IMG/VR virus record: IMGVR_UViG_3300033148_004143
Coordinates: 1 to 22,232 of that record
Direction: 5' to 3' (one strand)
Source: a virus
DNA: 22,232 nt
The notes below the pieces were generated by a model. That model was given only the letters and a program-made list of their open reading frames with translations. It was not told the DNA's origin and ran no database searches. A program made the translations under genes and the position numbers. Below are positions 5,905 to 22,232 of this stretch, in pieces (the stretch's first letter is position 1; every line of letters starts with the position of its first letter).

Positions 5905-6081
5905 ATGTGGCCGTTTAGAAAATCAAAAAAACTTGCATTACTTAACTGGTGGGACGATATGAAGCCTGACTACGACTATCTGTATAAGCATAACCATCGT
6001 GTAATACTGCCTTACATACCAATCAGTTGGTATTGCCCAATGACTTTTACTTATTACTCAGGTACTATATGCGCGAGATGA
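5905..6081 (+). CDS. small aromatic-rich protein upstream of terL
   Basis: ATG 5905 follows GGGAAAGAAA, and a TTG at 5893 is less likely. The 58-residue product begins MWPFRKSKKLALLNWWDDMK and is rich in tyrosine, tryptophan and proline (YDYLYKHNHRVILPYIPISW). The last 17 codons overlap the 5' end of the large terminase frame, and the TGA overlaps ATG 6078. It may be a small coupled gene or, less likely, the N-terminus of the terminase separated by a frameshift. Confidence 0.5.
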   Translation: MWPFRKSKKLALLNWWDDMKPDYDYLYKHNHRVILPYIPISWYCPMTFTYYSGTICAR

Positions 6082-12322: not shown

Positions 12323-13249
12323 ATGAGCACACAGATTCCGATTGCCTTTGTTGACCAATTCAAGGCCAACATTCTGCTCTTATCGCAGCAAAAGCCTTCG
12401 ATATTACGCGGATGTTGCCGACCTGAACCGGTTACAGGCGATACGATGTATGTGGAGCGTATCGGCCCGAAGGATGCTCAGCCGCGTGGTGCACGCCACG
12501 GCGAGACTCCTATCTCCGACGCCGACCACACCCGTCGAAAACTGTCGATGGTGGACTATGTAGTTCCCGCCGACATAATCGACAAGCCTGATAGACTGAA
12601 AATGCTCATCGACCCACAGTCGGTGTATGCTCAGAATCAGGTATTTGCATTGAACCGACAGATAGACGATGTGATTATCGCAGCCCTCTATGGCGATGCT
12701 TACGGCGGACACGCCGGAGGCACTACGATTCACAACTACGATGTAGGCGAATGTCGTCTTATCGAGTCGGATGGTTCAGTGCAAACCGCAGGTACAGACC
12801 ACGAAGCCGCAACTGATACCCAGTTGTCAATCGCGAAGTTACTTACCTGCAAACAGCTTCTTGATGATGCAGAAATTGATGAATCAAGACAGCGTTATTT
12901 CCTTACTAATCCCTACAACATTAACCAGTTACTAAACCTGACTGAAGTTAAGAGTGCGGATTATAACACAGTGAAAGCATTGGCGCAGGGAAAGATTGAT
13001 ACCTTTATGGGCTTCAAGTTCCTGCGTTCAACGAGACTTCCAGCGGATGACACAGATGTAAGTGCCACCCACTGTTTTGCTTTCGCTCAAGACGCTATCG
13101 TGCTTGCAGTCGCCGAAGAGCCGAATGTTTCTATCGACCTTCGTCCTGATATGCTAAACAGTACTCAAGTATTTTCTACGCTTAGTATTGGCGCAACCAG
13201 AGTAGAAGGGCCGGCAGTAGTCGATATAGCTTTACCGACATCTGCGTAA
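12323..13249 (+). CDS. major capsid protein
   Basis: This 308-residue protein forms the icosahedral shell. It contains the pattern of podovirus capsid proteins annotated as phage capsid: FVDQFKANILLLSQQKPSIL at the start, RGARHGETPISDADHTRRKL, VDYVVPADIIDKPDRLKML, FALNRQIDDVIIAALYGDAY near residue 115, and YFLTNPYNINQLLN. It ends with a beta-rich domain (STLSIGATRVEGPAVVDI). The ribosome binding site is AAAGG. It follows the scaffold gene and precedes a putative decoration gene, and the HK97-like fold is inferred. Confidence 0.88.
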   Translation: MSTQIPIAFVDQFKANILLLSQQKPSILRGCCRPEPVTGDTMYVERIGPKDAQPRGARHGETPISDADHTRRKLSMVDYVVPADIIDKPDRLKMLIDPQSVYAQNQVFALNRQIDDVIIAALYGDAYGGHAGGTTIHNYDVGECRLIESDGSVQTAGTDHEAATDTQLSIAKLLTCKQLLDDAEIDESRQRYFLTNPYNINQLLNLTEVKSADYNTVKALAQGKIDTFMGFKFLRSTRLPADDTDVSATHCFAFAQDAIVLAVAEEPNVSIDLRPDMLNSTQVFSTLSIGATRVEGPAVVDIALPTSA

Positions 13250-14811: not shown

Positions 14812-15342
14812 GTGACGTTAAACAAAAATAGGCCATTTATAGACGATGATTCAAAAAGTTTGGCTACTTTGCAGTCTGAATGGATAACAGTTGGTGTGAT
14901 TGATGCAACGGCAGGTGCCGCTGATGGTGCCTTGGGGGTAACAGAAAGAAATTTCTCTACCTCCGGCATATTAGCTAACTCTGTGCAGGAATTAGCTATT
15001 CCGCCTTCTTGGAACTCAATAGAAGTGCAACTGGAATCTGCCACAGACGACGAGAACAGCGTGATAGATGTATATGTTGGCAGGGCGCTTTCGGATGTAG
15101 CGAAACGTGTCTGCACGCTCACCTGTACTACAGGCACACAAACTGGCGACGGGTCTGGGTTAAAACTTGTTGACACCATAACTGTAACAAATGAAAAATG
15201 GTATTCGGCTATTACGGTTTTAAGCGGAGTCGCTAATCACGCCGCAGGAATAATGTTTGATTTGCAGGGGTATAGCAAAATAATGTTTCACGGACATACT
15301 ACAGTTGATGGGGATTTAACTGTCAAAATAGCAGGGATATAA
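14812..15342 (+). CDS. beta-rich structural protein, module 1
   Basis: This starts with GTG 14812, seven bases after AGGAG in the direct repeat. The 176-residue product has alternating beta-type sequence: NSVQELAIPPSWNSIEVQLE, then NSVIDVYVGRALSDVAKRV, and ends with KIMFHGHTTVDGDLTVKIAG. It contains two cysteines (CTLTCTTGTQTG). It is probably a virion protein, perhaps a tail-fibre base or adaptor for the following beta-helix protein. No family is recognised. The last base of its TAA stop is also the A of the next ATG (TAATG). Confidence 0.65.
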   Translation: MTLNKNRPFIDDDSKSLATLQSEWITVGVIDATAGAADGALGVTERNFSTSGILANSVQELAIPPSWNSIEVQLESATDDENSVIDVYVGRALSDVAKRVCTLTCTTGTQTGDGSGLKLVDTITVTNEKWYSAITVLSGVANHAAGIMFDLQGYSKIMFHGHTTVDGDLTVKIAGI

Positions 15343-16964
15343 TGACAGATTGGTATGTAAGTGCGGCAGGTGCAGGTTCTAAGGATGGCACTCTTGGCAA
15401 TGCTTGGGATACGTTTGCTAATATTGACTGGACAGGTTCTGGTGTACAGCCCGGAGACGACCTTTACGTTATAGGAACTGTTACAGGTCAATTAACGGTA
15501 GGCGGGTCTGGTTCCGCAGGACTTCCAATCACCATTAGAGGTGATGCGGACGGGGAGGATGCTGGAATAATAACCAGTTTAACATCTGCAAATCCATTGG
15601 GGGCAGGTGATGACTGGGTAGTTGTTCCGGGTAGGGGAACATTCGCATTCCAAACAGTTAACTTAGAGCCCACTGCTTTTTATCTAAACGGTACGCGCCT
15701 TACTTTTGTGGAGTGGACTGTTGATGCCGACACTACAGCGGCTGTTATGGATACTATAGATAATAGTTTCTCGGTGGATGTGGACAATAACATAGGCTAT
15801 GTCCATTTGGAGGCCGAGGCCGACCCTGACACTTTAGGGACGGCTTCTGCTAATTGGGGAGTTACCCGCAATTACGCCCACGGTGTAACGATGGTGGACA
15901 AAAGGTTTATAACGATTAAGAATCTTACTATTCAAAAGAAAACGTCTCAAGGCGTTAATATAACCACTTCCGGCAACGTGTTATCTTCGGATATTATTAT
16001 AGACAATGTTACAATTACAAGTTGCGGGTGGAATGGGATATATTTTCTTAATCTTACTGGTAATACATATGATATGACAGGATGTGCAGTCCGAAATTGT
16101 ACTATCAGTGATTGTGGATGGGGGGCCATAAATACGTCTTTTGGAATAGACGGCCTCGTTATAGAAAACAATACTTGTAGGGTCTGTGGGTGGCATAGGC
16201 TGGCCAACCAGATAGCCACAGGCGGGTCGAGCGCAACTCGTTATTCTAAAAATGTCATCATTAGAAACAATATAAGTACGGGAGCTATTTCTTTTCCTTA
16301 CGCACAATCAGTTTTGGCCGGCGCCGAAGACAAAGACCAGGTTGACGGCAATGGTATTATGCTTGACCAATACTCGGAAGATTCGATAACAGAACATAAT
16401 ATATGCTATGACAATCAGGGGTATGGCATAAGAGTCAGTAATAATTCAGACGGCCATACAATTCGATATAATACTTGTTATGGCAATGGTAAACTTGCAA
16501 ATGATTCTGCTAACGCAGCGGGAATAGGTGCGTGGGATTACGATGGCATAATTATTGAATATAATACTTGTTATGACAATGAGAATGGAATTTCTTTACG
16601 CAAACAAGATGCCGGAACCTCTATAGTTCGGCATAACATTGTGTCTTCGAGCGTAGCATACGACTTTCGCTATGATGATTCTACCGTAACTGCGATAAAT
16701 TTTAACAACAACTGTTACTATAATGCGGGAGTGGCTAATAATTTTTACGAAATCAATGGGACAACTGCAATGGATTTCGCATCGTGGCAAACACAAGCCG
16801 GAGAATCGTCTTCTATTGAAGCTGACCCCAAATTCACCGATGCAGCTAACGCTGACTTTAGTTTACAGGGCAATTCACCCTGTTTGGGCTTAGGCGCTGT
16901 CTCATCGCCAACAACAAGGGGTAGGGGAGCGAGATACTTAGGAAGGCGGACGAGACATAGTTAG
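15342..16964 (+). CDS. right-handed beta-helix protein (tailspike-like)
   Basis: The start is coupled to the previous gene. The 540-residue protein begins WYVSAAGAGSKDGTLGNAWD, the entrance motif of many DUF1565/NosD-type beta-helix proteins. It then shows many coils with N/I/V/T spacing (SDIIIDNVTITSCGWNGIYF, GLVIENNTCRVCGWHRLANQ, NVIIRNNISTG, HTIRYNTCYGNG, IIIEYNTCYDNENGISL), which is right-handed parallel beta-helix architecture. The C-terminus has a PKFTDAANADFSLQGNSPCL segment common in such proteins. In phages these act as tailspikes that bind or cleave surface polysaccharide. The enzymatic activity is not visible. There is no signal peptide here. Confidence 0.82.
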   Translation: MTDWYVSAAGAGSKDGTLGNAWDTFANIDWTGSGVQPGDDLYVIGTVTGQLTVGGSGSAGLPITIRGDADGEDAGIITSLTSANPLGAGDDWVVVPGRGTFAFQTVNLEPTAFYLNGTRLTFVEWTVDADTTAAVMDTIDNSFSVDVDNNIGYVHLEAEADPDTLGTASANWGVTRNYAHGVTMVDKRFITIKNLTIQKKTSQGVNITTSGNVLSSDIIIDNVTITSCGWNGIYFLNLTGNTYDMTGCAVRNCTISDCGWGAINTSFGIDGLVIENNTCRVCGWHRLANQIATGGSSATRYSKNVIIRNNISTGAISFPYAQSVLAGAEDKDQVDGNGIMLDQYSEDSITEHNICYDNQGYGIRVSNNSDGHTIRYNTCYGNGKLANDSANAAGIGAWDYDGIIIEYNTCYDNENGISLRKQDAGTSIVRHNIVSSSVAYDFRYDDSTVTAINFNNNCYYNAGVANNFYEINGTTAMDFASWQTQAGESSSIEADPKFTDAANADFSLQGNSPCLGLGAVSSPTTRGRGARYLGRRTRHS

Positions 16965-17066: not shown

Positions 17067-17453
17067 ATGGCTTTAGATGCTTCAAATACAGGCGCATTAG
17101 CCAATTTGTCTCAAGATTTGCCTATGGGGGCTACGAGACATTATTTTAACGGCACTGATAACGATTCAGCGGATGCGAAAGAAATAGTCGCCGCACCGGG
17201 CGCAGGAAGAAGGTTGATACTTACGCACCTTAGTATCAATGTTTCTGCTGCTCAGGCAATCGCCATTCTTGATGGCGCCACGACCATATTGATTGGTCCT
17301 ATACAAGTCGAGGCTTCGGGTGCAGGATATGAAAAGGAATATAAATGGGGCGTTCCTTTGACAACGAATACGGCTATGTATGTCGATTCTGATACAGATG
17401 CGCTGTTTCATATCTACATAGAATATATAAACGCCCCGGTTGGGACTTTCTAA
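17067..17453 (+). CDS. beta-rich structural protein, module 2
   Basis: The start is ATG 17067 with AGGAG in the repeat. The product has 128 residues. It begins with a small N-terminal part (LPMGATRHYFNGTDNDS) followed by beta strands: RRLILTHLSINVSAAQAIAI, LDGATTILIGPIQVEASGAG, and FHIYIEYINAPVGTF. It is a likely virion protein with a jelly-roll-like or fibre-type fold. It occupies the place that the gene at 14812 has in module 1, although the two proteins are not obviously similar. The stop overlaps the next ATG (TAATG). Confidence 0.65.
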   Translation: MALDASNTGALANLSQDLPMGATRHYFNGTDNDSADAKEIVAAPGAGRRLILTHLSINVSAAQAIAILDGATTILIGPIQVEASGAGYEKEYKWGVPLTTNTAMYVDSDTDALFHIYIEYINAPVGTF

Positions 17454-17932
17454 TGAAAAAGATTATAGCATTGATTTTGTTGTTAGCCGTTTGCGTGGTT
17501 TACGCTGCTACGGAAACCCATACAACAGGAACGGCTAATGTGTCATCTGCTCACCATCAGAGCACGGCAACAAATTACGGGATGATGAAAAAAGCAGCGA
17601 TTGTTATGTCTGCCGGGGAACTTGATGGAACTGTTACAGAAGCCATTGACAGTATTCACGGCATTGTAATGAGAATCAGTATAGATGTAACAGGAACAGA
17701 CGGCGATTACACTGTCACGTTGCGGGACGAGAATGATATTACCATATTCTCAGCAGCAAATCTCGACTCCGACCCGACTGCCGATTTTTCTTATGCTGTC
17801 TATGAGGATGACACAGAGGGCAATCCGTGGGCCGGTGTGCCTGTAGGGGGTGTAATGGACTTGGTTGTTACTGATGCTGCTGATTTAACGGCAATGACCG
17901 TAAGCATTTATTATCTTGACTTCTGGAGATAA
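17453..17932 (+). CDS. exported beta-rich protein with Sec signal peptide
   Basis: ATG 17453 overlaps the previous TAA. The N-terminus MKKIIALILLLAVCVVYA is a classical Sec signal peptide (two lysines, hydrophobic core, AxA-type cleavage after YA), so the mature protein should leave the cytoplasm. The remaining 140 residues are beta-rich: IVMRISIDVTGTDGDYTVTL, then GVPVGGVMDLVVTDAADL. It lacks a lipobox. A secreted protein in a phage virion cluster is unusual. It may be displayed on the infected host or be released with the next gene's product. No family is recognised. Confidence 0.7.
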   Translation: MKKIIALILLLAVCVVYAATETHTTGTANVSSAHHQSTATNYGMMKKAAIVMSAGELDGTVTEAIDSIHGIVMRISIDVTGTDGDYTVTLRDENDITIFSAANLDSDPTADFSYAVYEDDTEGNPWAGVPVGGVMDLVVTDAADLTAMTVSIYYLDFWR

Positions 17933-17933
17933 T

Positions 17934-19835
17934 ATGAAATCCATCCTGGCGATATTTTTACTGTTGGGGTCTGTTTGTTATGCAACAGACCATTGTGTAC
18001 GTGCTCACGGGGGTAATAACGGTGATGGTACTACGTGGAACGCTGCCGGTGCTCCCGGTGGTGCTGGATGTTATACAGAATTGCCCGCCGCTCTGACTCG
18101 TGGGGACACGTATTATATAGCAGATGGGGCAGATTATGCAAATTATAAGTTCGATGATGCTGTAGATGGGACGAAATGGATATATATTAAGAAAGCCATT
18201 GAGTCTGACCACGGCACAGACACGGGTTGGGATAGTAGTTATGGTGACGGTCAAGCTGTATGGATTGCGGCTGATTCGGGATATGACGTTGACGCGTGTT
18301 GGTGGGTAACTACAGAGTATTATGAGTTTGACGGTCAAGTGGGCGGCGGGCCTTCTGACTGGGACGGTTCTTCAACTGCCCACGGCTTCAAATTAACAGG
18401 CCCAGAGGACAACGATGGTACTAACTGTATGCTGATGGGTATTGGTGCATCGACAAATACCTTTGGGGCGCATTATGTAATTAAACATATTGAATTTACC
18501 TGTGATGGTTATGGCTGTGCTTCTGACGATGATTTTTCAGACTGTTCAGGCTTCAATCCTTACGCAATTATTTCACGCGGCAATATAAGAGCACATTCCA
18601 ATCTCGACACAGACGTCGATTGCTTACACGATGTTACATTATCGTATTGCTATTTTCATAAACTTCATATGTGTTGGAATAATTCTGCGTGTAGAGATTG
18701 GATAGTAGAATACAACCATTTTAAAACGATGATTGATAACGATTCTGGTACACCATATCAAGAAGATGGTATGAAATTTCTTCAGAGCCGTAATATAACA
18801 ATACGGTACAATTATTTTTATGATACAAGCGGTTCTGGTTCAATCTTTATGGCACCTTCTGACCAGGTTACTAATATGACAGCTGGGGGGTTTTACGATG
18901 AAGTTGAGCCCTGTGACGCACCGGAACTTTCAAAGATATATATTTATGGTAATATTTTTCACAATGAAAATCAGCGTTCCAATGACGTGGGGGTGGTTTG
19001 TATTGAGGATGACCGAAATCGAGATGATGAAGTTATAAGTGAAATCTATTTCTATAATAATACTGTTATTGCTGAAGTTGAGGGTGGCAATCACGGAATA
19101 AATGCAGACGATTGCTGGAAGCACGTCTCGCCAACCAACCTAACTGGATTATCAAGCACAGCCGCATCCGATAGAATTACTGGCAGTAACGGCGACTTTA
19201 CAGGCATAGAGATTGACGATGTTGTCAAGATTACAAACACCGGCGACGGCGGGCACGTAACCGCAGGGTTTTATCAGGTAGATGCGACAGATGACACCAA
19301 TGCAGCTTATGTTGAATTTAGTACTGATATTGATGACGGCAACGATGATACAGGTGTAACGGCCACAATAAATTTTGGCGTCGGCTCAATTAGTGATATT
19401 CAGGTAAAAAATAATATATTTTATAATGTAAATTCAGAGGTATTAGTAATTGGCGACGCAGATTCGTCATTTTATGATAATGTAAGCTCAACAGATGTAA
19501 CACACAACTGGTATGATGATATGATTCTCGGTTCGAGCGATGAAACTGCTGCGTTTGTTGCTTTTGGCTCTAATCACCAGACGGGGGAGGGAGACCCTTT
19601 TATAAATTTGGCAGGTCACGATTATTCGCTTACTGCTCCTACAACTGCTGGTGTTGATGTAACCGACCCCTGCCATACTTATGAAACTGATATGTTTGGT
19701 GTTACGAGAGGCGACGATGGCACGTGGGACAGGGGGGCTTTAGAATATGATGACTCAGGCGCTGCAATAACCCCAATGCCCATAATACGAACACTTATAA
19801 TTATGAAATTGTTAGGAGGAGGTTTCGATGGCTGA
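17934..19835 (+). CDS. exported right-handed beta-helix protein with Sec signal
   Basis: I start at ATG 17934 (GGAG upstream), giving 633 residues. The N-terminus is a Sec signal peptide (MKSILAIFLLLGSVCYA). The mature protein begins DHCVRAHGGNNGDGTTWNAA, a beta-helix entrance, followed by coils such as KWIYIKKAIES, YVIKHIEFTCDGYGC and NITIRYNYFYDTSGSGSIFM, SKIYIYGNIFHNENQRS and ISEIYFYNNTVIAEVEGG. The end has a hydrophobic stretch (ITPMPIIRTLIIMKLLGG). The fold matches pectate-lyase-like or polysaccharide-binding proteins. It forms a pair with the preceding exported protein. The last bases overlap the next gene. Confidence 0.78.
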   Translation: MKSILAIFLLLGSVCYATDHCVRAHGGNNGDGTTWNAAGAPGGAGCYTELPAALTRGDTYYIADGADYANYKFDDAVDGTKWIYIKKAIESDHGTDTGWDSSYGDGQAVWIAADSGYDVDACWWVTTEYYEFDGQVGGGPSDWDGSSTAHGFKLTGPEDNDGTNCMLMGIGASTNTFGAHYVIKHIEFTCDGYGCASDDDFSDCSGFNPYAIISRGNIRAHSNLDTDVDCLHDVTLSYCYFHKLHMCWNNSACRDWIVEYNHFKTMIDNDSGTPYQEDGMKFLQSRNITIRYNYFYDTSGSGSIFMAPSDQVTNMTAGGFYDEVEPCDAPELSKIYIYGNIFHNENQRSNDVGVVCIEDDRNRDDEVISEIYFYNNTVIAEVEGGNHGINADDCWKHVSPTNLTGLSSTAASDRITGSNGDFTGIEIDDVVKITNTGDGGHVTAGFYQVDATDDTNAAYVEFSTDIDDGNDDTGVTATINFGVGSISDIQVKNNIFYNVNSEVLVIGDADSSFYDNVSSTDVTHNWYDDMILGSSDETAAFVAFGSNHQTGEGDPFINLAGHDYSLTAPTTAGVDVTDPCHTYETDMFGVTRGDDGTWDRGALEYDDSGAAITPMPIIRTLIIMKLLGGGFDG

Positions 19836-20016
19836 AATTAAAGAAGAAGTAACATTCTTTACCAAGGCAGACCAGGTGAGATTTGAGACCCGCACCAACG
19901 GCGACAGACTGCACATAAAAGGCTTCCATCTTGACCCTTCTCAAGCCGCGTCATTAGCCTGGCTGGTAAATCAAGATAATAACGCCCAACTGAAATTTAA
20001 GATTAAGGTGAAGTAG
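19828..20016 (+). CDS. small protein upstream of the tail tubular gene
   Basis: TTAGGAGGAGG precedes the ATG, and the start overlaps the previous gene by eight bases. The 62-residue product is MAEIKEEVTFFTKADQVRFE followed by FHLDPSQAASLAWLVN and KIKVK. The C-terminal part resembles a short helix plus strand, as found in small tail or single-strand DNA-binding-like proteins of phages, but no family is certain. It opens the tail-tube gene group. Confidence 0.65.
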   Translation: MAEIKEEVTFFTKADQVRFETRTNGDRLHIKGFHLDPSQAASLAWLVNQDNNAQLKFKIKVK

Positions 20017-20609
20017 TGGCACTTTCTGAGACAAAAATATGCAATGCCGCCCTTAGTAAGATTGGCAGTCAAAGACTTAACGATTTAGATGAAGATACCA
20101 CCCCGCAGGCTATCCAGTGCCGGACGCATTACGAGATGACCAGAGACTTTCTTATGCGCTCTCACTGGTGGAGATTTGCTTCGGCAAGGGCTGACTTGTC
20201 TGTAAGCGCTGATACGCCAAGCGGCGATGAGTGGGACTATCAGTTTCCTTTGCCGAACGACTTTCTTGCAATGAAGTCTGTTTATGAGAACAGATTCTCT
20301 AACGAGAATTTACGCTCTTACGCTCTTGAAGGAAAGATGCTCCTTACAAACGAAAACGAGATGTCCATTCGGTATATTAAAAAAGTTACCGACGTTACCG
20401 AGTTTGACCCGCTTTTTGTAGAGGTGCTCGTTTTGCAGTTGGCTTTGAAACTGGTCGGGCCGCTTGCTGGTGGCGCTGCGGGGATTCAGGATGTAATCCA
20501 AAAAGAACTTGCTTCTATAATGCCTGCGGTTAAAGCGTTAGACGGGCAGGAAACCAATACCGAAGGCCAGTACAGCTTGGAGACGTGGAATGATGCTCGT
20601 TATACGTAA
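20016..20609 (+). CDS. tail tubular protein A-like (T7 gp11 type)
   Basis: This starts with GTG 20016, overlapping the previous TAG. The 197-residue protein begins LSETKICNAALSKIGSQRLN and continues DEDTTPQAIQCRTHYEMTRD, then LMRSHWWRFASARADLSVSA and YQFPLPNDFLAMKSVY. It is characteristic of the gp11-type family: A-L-x-x-I-G, then C-x-x-x-Y-x-x-x-R-D-x-x-L-R-x-H-x-W-x-F-A, then P-x-D. This protein forms the ring between portal and nozzle in T7-type tails. The length is normal. The next tail gene is gp12-like, so the order matches T7-like tails. Confidence 0.88.
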   Translation: MALSETKICNAALSKIGSQRLNDLDEDTTPQAIQCRTHYEMTRDFLMRSHWWRFASARADLSVSADTPSGDEWDYQFPLPNDFLAMKSVYENRFSNENLRSYALEGKMLLTNENEMSIRYIKKVTDVTEFDPLFVEVLVLQLALKLVGPLAGGAAGIQDVIQKELASIMPAVKALDGQETNTEGQYSLETWNDARYT

Positions 20610-20981: not shown

Positions 20982-22232
20982 ATGGCAAACCTTCCTGTAA
21001 TCACATTAAATTCCGGTAAACTTACGCCATTGATAGATGCGCGTTCTGACGTAGAGAAATACGGCGGCGGATGCCGTGAACTTCAGAATATGATACCGTT
21101 GGTTTACGGGCCGGTTACACGAAGGCCGGGTACGCTCAGGGTTGCAAACTGCTATGACCACGATGTCAAGTCGAGGATGGTGAAATTTATATATTCATCT
21201 ACTATAGCATATAAGTTAGAGTTTTCTAATAAGATACTGAACGTATATTACGAACAGGCTTTGGTTGACACTCTTGTAACTTCATACCTCGAAGCAGACC
21301 TTCCTGAACTTCAATTTGAGCAATCGGCGGACGTGATGTGGATTGTCCACCCTGAATATCATCCAGCCAAATTAACCAGAACAGACGCAACTACATTTGC
21401 TCTTAATGATATAACATTTGAAAGCGGCCCATTTATTGAGAGAAATGATATAGCTGAAGATGATGGTGTAACTATCAAGGCGGTAGGATATACGATTGCT
21501 GCGGCAACTGCCGGTGCACCGGAGACAGGCAATTTTACTATTGAGGGAAGCGACGAAGATGATGCTACAGCCATAGGGGCACTGTTTACAGCAAATACAA
21601 GGTTTTATATTGATGCTTCTGATTCTGAAACAAACGACGGTGCGTGGACGGTTCACGAAAGCAAAGCTACTGATGTTACCGGTACAACTGTAACAATTTA
21701 TACGAACGAAACCATTGCCGGTGGTATTGACGATGGTGAAATACAAATCGCTGGCGGAGAAGTAACGCTTACTGCTTCGGCAGCCACATTTACAACCGGA
21801 ACATCCGGCCACACAGGGTCATTATTCAAGTTGACCCACAAGCGATTGCAGACAATAACGAAAATTGAGGGCGCAACCGCAGACGCATACAGTTCCGCAA
21901 TAGACGTAAAAGGCAGTTGGTCGTTTACCACGCACGGCAACTGGGATGGGGTTGTAGAAATACAACGGCTTGAAGATGGTACAAATTGGGAAACGTTCAG
22001 GTCTTATACGTCAACGATGGCAAGCGGGACAGGGTCAAGGAATATCCAGAAGTCTGACGTTGAAGAAACCAATGGAGTTCAGTATAGAATATTTTTTGAT
22101 TACACCGACGGCAGTTTAGACGCCGACCTTGTAGTGGACGAAAGCACACAGGACAGTATATTCAAGATAACCGCCACAGCGTCCACAACATCGGCGACGG
22201 CTACGGCCATTATTCCTGCACCATACAACGAG
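20982..22232 (+). CDS. tail nozzle protein B-like (T7 gp12 type), 3' truncated
   Basis: ATG 20982 follows CAGGAGAGTA. The frame stays open to the window end (417 codons), so the C-terminus is missing. The N-terminus has the gp12-type start: GKLTPLIDARSDVEKYGGGC and ELQNMIPLVYGPVTRRPGTL, then FIYSSTIAYKLEFSNKILNV and LQFEQSADVMWIVHPEYHPA and KLTRTD. These are conserved in tail tubular protein B. Gp12 forms the nozzle at the tail tip. Residues of about 180-400 contain a Thr/Ala/Gly-rich beta region (TIEGSDEDD, TLTASAATFTTG) that looks like an inserted or variable domain. Confidence 0.88.
   Translation, partial: MANLPVITLNSGKLTPLIDARSDVEKYGGGCRELQNMIPLVYGPVTRRPGTLRVANCYDHDVKSRMVKFIYSSTIAYKLEFSNKILNVYYEQALVDTLVTSYLEADLPELQFEQSADVMWIVHPEYHPAKLTRTDATTFALNDITFESGPFIERNDIAEDDGVTIKAVGYTIAAATAGAPETGNFTIEGSDEDDATAIGALFTANTRFYIDASDSETNDGAWTVHESKATDVTGTTVTIYTNETIAGGIDDGEIQIAGGEVTLTASAATFTTGTSGHTGSLFKLTHKRLQTITKIEGATADAYSSAIDVKGSWSFTTHGNWDGVVEIQRLEDGTNWETFRSYTSTMASGTGSRNIQKSDVEETNGVQYRIFFDYTDGSLDADLVVDESTQDSIFKITATASTTSATATAIIPAPYNE

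Follow-up and report, generated by a model that had tools for sequence, protein, structure and literature searches.

Two adjacent genes with Sec-type signal peptides between the capsid and tail-adaptor genes of an HTVC010P-like podovirus may encode exported late cargo

The DNA analysed here (the window) is a 22,232-base IMG/VR record that we assigned to the HTVC010P-like podoviruses on the basis of homologous capsid, portal and terminase genes lying in the same order. Downstream of the terminase (position 6027), portal (8030) and scaffold-like (11248) genes, the major capsid protein is encoded at 12323..13249 on the plus strand (phrog_3437 4.4e-69; 42-48% identity to HTVC010P-like Pelagibacter phages), and the gene for tail tubular protein A, the adaptor, lies at 20016..20609 on the same strand, followed by tail tubular B at 20982, in the order found in HTVC010P and Baldr. 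Taking the capsid and tubular A genes as the left and right landmarks of a slot, we found that this slot spans 6.8 kb in the window vs. 1.9-3.2 kb in sister phages and usually 0.1-1.2 kb in more distant marine relatives. Within it, all on the plus strand, an accessory 176-residue beta-rich protein (14812..15342) and an accessory 540-residue right-handed beta-helix protein (15342..16964; PF13229 at 2.2e-20 and 73.3 bits, over the cut-off), both devoid of a signal peptide, precede a 128-residue protein (17067..17453) with homologs in most of the closed sister intervals; the 159- and 633-residue proteins considered below come next, followed by a conserved 62-residue protein (19828..20016) which also has homologs in the sisters. 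Downstream of tail tubular B in L008, a near-identical twin of the window phage, a part resembling the N-terminus of T7 gp17 is followed by a beta-helix (L008:6473-8205), and this is probably the actual tail spike of the twin.

The 159-residue protein is encoded from an ATG at 17453 to a stop at 17932 and starts with a textbook Sec/SPase-I signal peptide, MKKIIALILLLAVCVVYA^A (17453..17506, plus strand), leaving a mature protein, with its stop codon, at 17507..17932. The neighboring frame is longest when read from a TTG at 17916 (639 residues), while initiation at ATG 17934, preceded by GGAG, yields the 633-residue form, signal included, with its stop at 19835; the textbook Sec/SPase-I signal peptide of this protein, MKSILAIFLLLGSVCYA^T, occupies 17934..17984 and the mature part, comprising beta-helix-like repeats and 15 cysteines, occupies 17985..19835 with the stop (plus strand). 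Both proteins were called by our own rule-based finder, which looks for a basic n-region, a hydrophobic h-region and an A/V-x-A-type c-region and which accepted 8 of 9 well-known E. coli signal peptides, missing TolB; in both window proteins the basic n-region and hydrophobic h-region are joined to a c-region of the A-x-A type. Cleavage sites were read by eye, not by a dedicated predictor, and for the 633-residue protein, where the finder placed the cut at 24, we judged A17^T18 to be more likely. Shuffling of each protein's own N-terminus reached the observed score in 0/20000 trials for the 159-residue protein and in 7/20000 for the 633-residue protein. Of the 981 distinct genes in the window and 80 HTVC010P-like loci, no more than 3 passed at strict thresholds, compared with 0.10 expected from shuffling, and since the third was an ORF in the wrong frame across the portal gene, the window pair represents the only convincing signal peptides in this set. 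The loose form of the rule called 7 of 1067 real genes vs. 1.1% of shuffled ones; because this is near chance level and includes false calls (e.g. L192), we have used strict calls only. Thus, the reading frames, the two signal peptides and the absence of a signal from the 540-residue beta-helix, all put forward in the first-pass annotation, were borne out.

Two further arguments were considered and rejected. A lipoprotein assignment was dropped because the h-region does not end in a lipobox ([LVI][ASTVI][GAS]C); as read from the sequence, the cysteine near the h-region follows a valine in both proteins (LAVC, GSVC) and is itself followed by more c-region. Cysteine enrichment was likewise dropped as evidence for export because the signal-less 540-residue helix is nearly as rich in cysteine (2.0% vs. 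2.5%, against a background of 1.4%).

None of the sister phages carries the 176-, 540-, 159- or 633-residue gene, while genes for proteins of 256, 71, 113, 128 and 62 residues are retained among them in varying combinations. Across 64 closed capsid-to-adaptor intervals with 171 genes, called signal peptides occurred in the window only. The slot from capsid to tail-adaptor gene is thus variable, with the 159- and 633-residue genes as accessory cargo, and, as the sister phages do without both of them, their description as virion-cluster proteins in the first-pass annotation is correct for location but is not evidence of particle membership. Both are nevertheless working genes under purifying selection, as evidenced by comparison with L008, which revealed 0 nonsynonymous and 6 synonymous changes in the 159-residue gene and a dN/dS of 0.19 in the 633-residue gene. 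The pair is also translationally knitted into the late operon: the start of the 159-residue gene overlaps the stop of the 128-residue gene (TAATG), a single base separates the 159- and 633-residue genes, and the ribosome-binding site (Shine-Dalgarno) of the 62-residue gene lies inside the 633-residue gene.

Relatives of the 159-residue protein occur in four phage types (HTVC010P-like, Mu-like, SU10-type and siphovirus-like). In Mu-like phages, members of 264 (L003), 164 (L107, of which L109 is an N-terminally truncated copy) and 159 residues (L114) lie directly before gp27; a 267-residue member (L004) is positioned between the capsid gene and an SU10-type adaptor in another podovirus, and a 368-residue member (L093) between the capsid gene and a DnaT_2-type connector gene. 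Family identity is 35-40% and the N-terminal letters differ, and the signal is present in all 6 distinct members with an intact N-terminus, counting the atypical signal of L004, which has a long n-region and was accepted by eye, the rule having passed it over. Homologs lacking the signal would have told against export; the motif-based retrieval made no use of the signal, and the intact members all carry it. Further members probably exist, given that L114 lacks the DDTEGN motif, which stands as DDTEGNP in the window protein. No cellular relative was confirmed in 84,980 bacterial and archaeal species genomes by two pattern scans, which find only exact short motifs and could miss distant relatives, and the earlier suggestion of host gene capture therefore found no backing for this family.

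An AF2 model of the 159-residue protein has a jelly-roll beta-sandwich core (pLDDT 65, pTM 0.58), the fold neighbors of which include phage cement proteins and CBM6 at Z 8-9. The matches to the Pam1, KHP30 and KHP40 cement proteins (Z 8.2-8.7) are to be read against unrelated beta-sandwich proteins that score alike, and no cement-family sequence match was found among Pfam and PHROG profiles. Low Foldseek and VIA scores were excluded from function assignment. Members L003, L004 and L093 carry an extra inserted domain, at which the profile built from the three hits the tail-tip cage protein of a phage (PDB 9d93, 7.5e-21). Near the L093 member, beside the head-tail connector gene, there is a porin-like ORF with a signal (L093:3776-4363; PF13609 7.8e-5, under the cut-off), and in L004:2154-5336 (L010:6199-9336) the capsid-adaptor slot holds a gene of more than 1000 residues, apparently a methyltransferase and glycosyltransferase fusion, adjoining a 205-residue methyltransferase-like gene.

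The repeats of the 633-residue protein (NITIRYNYFYD / KIYIYGNIFHN / DIQVKNNIFYN) suggest a beta-helix fold, with a PF13229 score (14.4 bits) under the cut-off of 25.9. We discarded its AF2 model (pLDDT 27), the input of which was two near-identical sequences. Relatives of the 633-residue protein were not found in phages, the PDB or plasmids, nor those of the 540-residue protein in phages or the PDB save for a weak viral match, L091. We identified no catalytic, enzymatic or binding site in the pair.

Signal peptides on head and tail genes are not confined to the window. In Mu-like loci, all from metagenomes and collected via terminase, strict signals exceeded the shuffled expectation in both the near set (17 vs. 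1.1) and the far set (25 vs. 1.6); many belong to lysis-type lipoproteins upstream of terminase, and others map to the head and tail genes. Cement-like proteins encoded immediately after the capsid gene bear textbook Sec signals, including phrog_673 proteins (L134:16104, L154, L155:6949 and L177:7394/L180), which occur both with and without a signal, and a Phage_cement_2-like protein (L166:17076) with its relative (L179:12321). In one contig the major capsid protein itself (L135:12666-13724; phrog_1005 6.9e-91 from residue 42) is extended at its N-terminus by 42 signal-like residues, with their own Shine-Dalgarno before them, while homologs in isolate phages lack the extension and start right after it. 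A Shine-Dalgarno sequence stands upstream of the signal in every head-type case that we read, and L136 and L141 are further, uncharacterised signal cases. The head-tail region of L109 and L112 contains a beta-helix (PF13229 5.6e-11) whose N-terminus resembles a signal but did not pass the rule, as well as a 259-residue protein with a signal, residue 33 of which, in L112, aligns with residue 1 of a signal-less 448-residue protein of the window's own clade (L018). In the same post-capsid slot, a beta-helix plus a tail-type protein are signal-less in L125:9903-12783 and signal-bearing in L112:8179-10494. Inside a Mu-like tail operon, L124:18324-21275 and L191 present four consecutive signal-bearing genes; in the L124 set two of these have dockerin-like (Dockerin_1-like) EF-hand repeats and one is LamG-like, with a tail tube gene downstream. 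Another Mu-like contig encodes a PEP-CTERM protein (24.5 bits, over the cut-off) upstream of terminase (L132:2066-2800). Together, the Dockerin_1 match, just under its cut-off, and the PEP-CTERM match in related Mu-like loci are only a hint that the host might be a member of the Planctomycetota. On signal peptides of virion or capsid proteins, we found nothing on point in the literature.

Since lysis frees cytoplasmic proteins anyway, a signal would be useful only to a protein that has to work beyond the inner membrane no later than at lysis. Judging from the signals, it is very probable that the host Sec machinery takes up both products, that signal peptidase I cleaves them and that they end up across the inner membrane, with virions meanwhile assembling in the cytoplasm. 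We surmise that the exported pair most likely acts on the envelope or the surface polysaccharide of the infected cell itself, with the jelly-roll protein as a putative binding module and the beta-helix as a partner that would bind or cleave polysaccharide. Receptors might thereby be masked or stripped late in infection (receptor masking or capsule trimming); progeny and debris would then not capture new virions and superinfection would be blocked, as with T5 Llp. This chain as a whole, from export to masked or stripped receptors, is a tentative reading to which we give somewhat less than an even chance. It is favored by 1) strict signals far above chance that are kept across the 159-residue family; 2) a variable slot in which the pair is under purifying selection; 3) envelope-like late-operon neighbors, i.e. 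the L093 porin-like ORF and the L124/L191 set; and 4) the resemblance of the jelly-roll to CBM6 as well. Speaking against it are the failure to identify an enzymatic or binding site, the 633-residue protein's lack of relatives among phages, plasmids and the PDB, the signal-bearing head proteins elsewhere, given which a signal at such a position need not mean a non-virion role, and the inserted domain of L003, L004 and L093, related as it is to a tail-tip protein. The step made in the first-pass annotation, from export to cell-surface action, is well supported in its first half and plausible in its second, while its premise that exported proteins are not virion parts has been weakened by the signals on cement-like proteins and on one major capsid protein.

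The main competing explanation, which we regard as unlikely but which weighs most among the alternatives, is that the pair are Sec-targeted surface parts of the virion, either capsid decoration or receptor-binding modules, that might be made in the periplasm, where disulfides are possible, and added at lysis, or else retained at the inner membrane as the site of head assembly. The recurrence of signals on head-type proteins beside the capsid gene of Mu-like phages would fit this, as would homologs that exist with and without a signal (L112 vs. L018), the predicted proximity of the 159-residue fold to cement proteins and the assembly of T4 and SPN3US heads on the inner membrane (PMC9026906). 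Nonetheless, with a cleavable signal the protein would not meet particles assembling in the cytoplasm before lysis, sister phages make their particles without these genes, the 159-residue family in Mu-like relatives sits before gp27 and away from the capsid gene, the signal-bearing capsid protein is a single contig, and the cement fold matches fall within common beta-sandwich noise. A broader version, in which several tailed-phage lineages Sec-target head or tail surface proteins (cement, receptor-binding modules, even the major capsid protein) and finish the particle partly at or beyond the inner membrane, with the window pair as one case, strikes us as doubtful.

That the pair are recently captured host exported genes, carried as neutral or decaying passengers of the late operon with relic signals, seems improbable to us: their accessory status and the similarity of the beta-helix and of the dockerin/PEP-CTERM neighbors in related loci to environmental bacterial exported proteins are what one would expect of passengers, but purifying selection, tight translational coupling on both sides and a 159-residue family for which the pattern scans confirmed no relative outside viral contigs, with its signal always kept, are not. 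Some podoviral ejection proteins touch membranes, and the hydrophobic N-termini could on that account be uncleaved membrane anchors for ejection or lysis, for which the long n-region of the uncalled L004 member may also speak; we consider this very unlikely in view of the A-x-A-type sites and the classical n/h/c layout that most members show, the lack of any second transmembrane stretch seen and a position in the window outside the lysis and ejection modules.

The textbook view has tailed phages assemble from proteins of the cytoplasm, and annotators usually label any gene within a head-tail operon as coding for a virion protein. Our data suggest that some of the operons that build particles also supply proteins destined for the exterior of the infected cell. 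With conserved Sec signals in unrelated phages, either these operons also encode tools that act outside, or some virion proteins cross the membrane; each alternative would alter the annotation of genes between capsid and tail, and both are directly testable.

Among known systems, the filamentous phage coat proteins pVIII and pIII are virion proteins made with Sec signals, but these phages assemble in the membrane, whereas the terminase, portal and major capsid genes of the window mark it as a tailed phage. Cement or decoration proteins (PF09956, phrog_673, Pam1 gp6 and KHP30/40 cement) may share a jelly-roll-like fold with the 159-residue protein and, like it, have a gene near the capsid gene, and some of their relatives in other phages have signal peptides; however, the 159-residue protein has no sequence match to them and classical cement proteins are cytoplasmic and signal-less. 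Right-handed beta-helix proteins of PF13229 share the repeat pattern of the 540- and 633-residue proteins, but the latter falls below the Pfam cut-off and has no known catalytic site or relative. A precedent for the envelope-directed reading is Llp of T5 and BF23, an exported receptor-blocking phage lipoprotein that prevents superinfection and has been proposed to protect progeny against debris (PMC4728585). Like the presumably exported window pair it involves a small exported phage protein, its gene lying beside the tail receptor-binding gene (PMC4728585); unlike Llp, the window proteins have signals that look to be of the SPase I type, are unrelated in sequence and include, as one of the partners, a 633-residue putative beta-helix.
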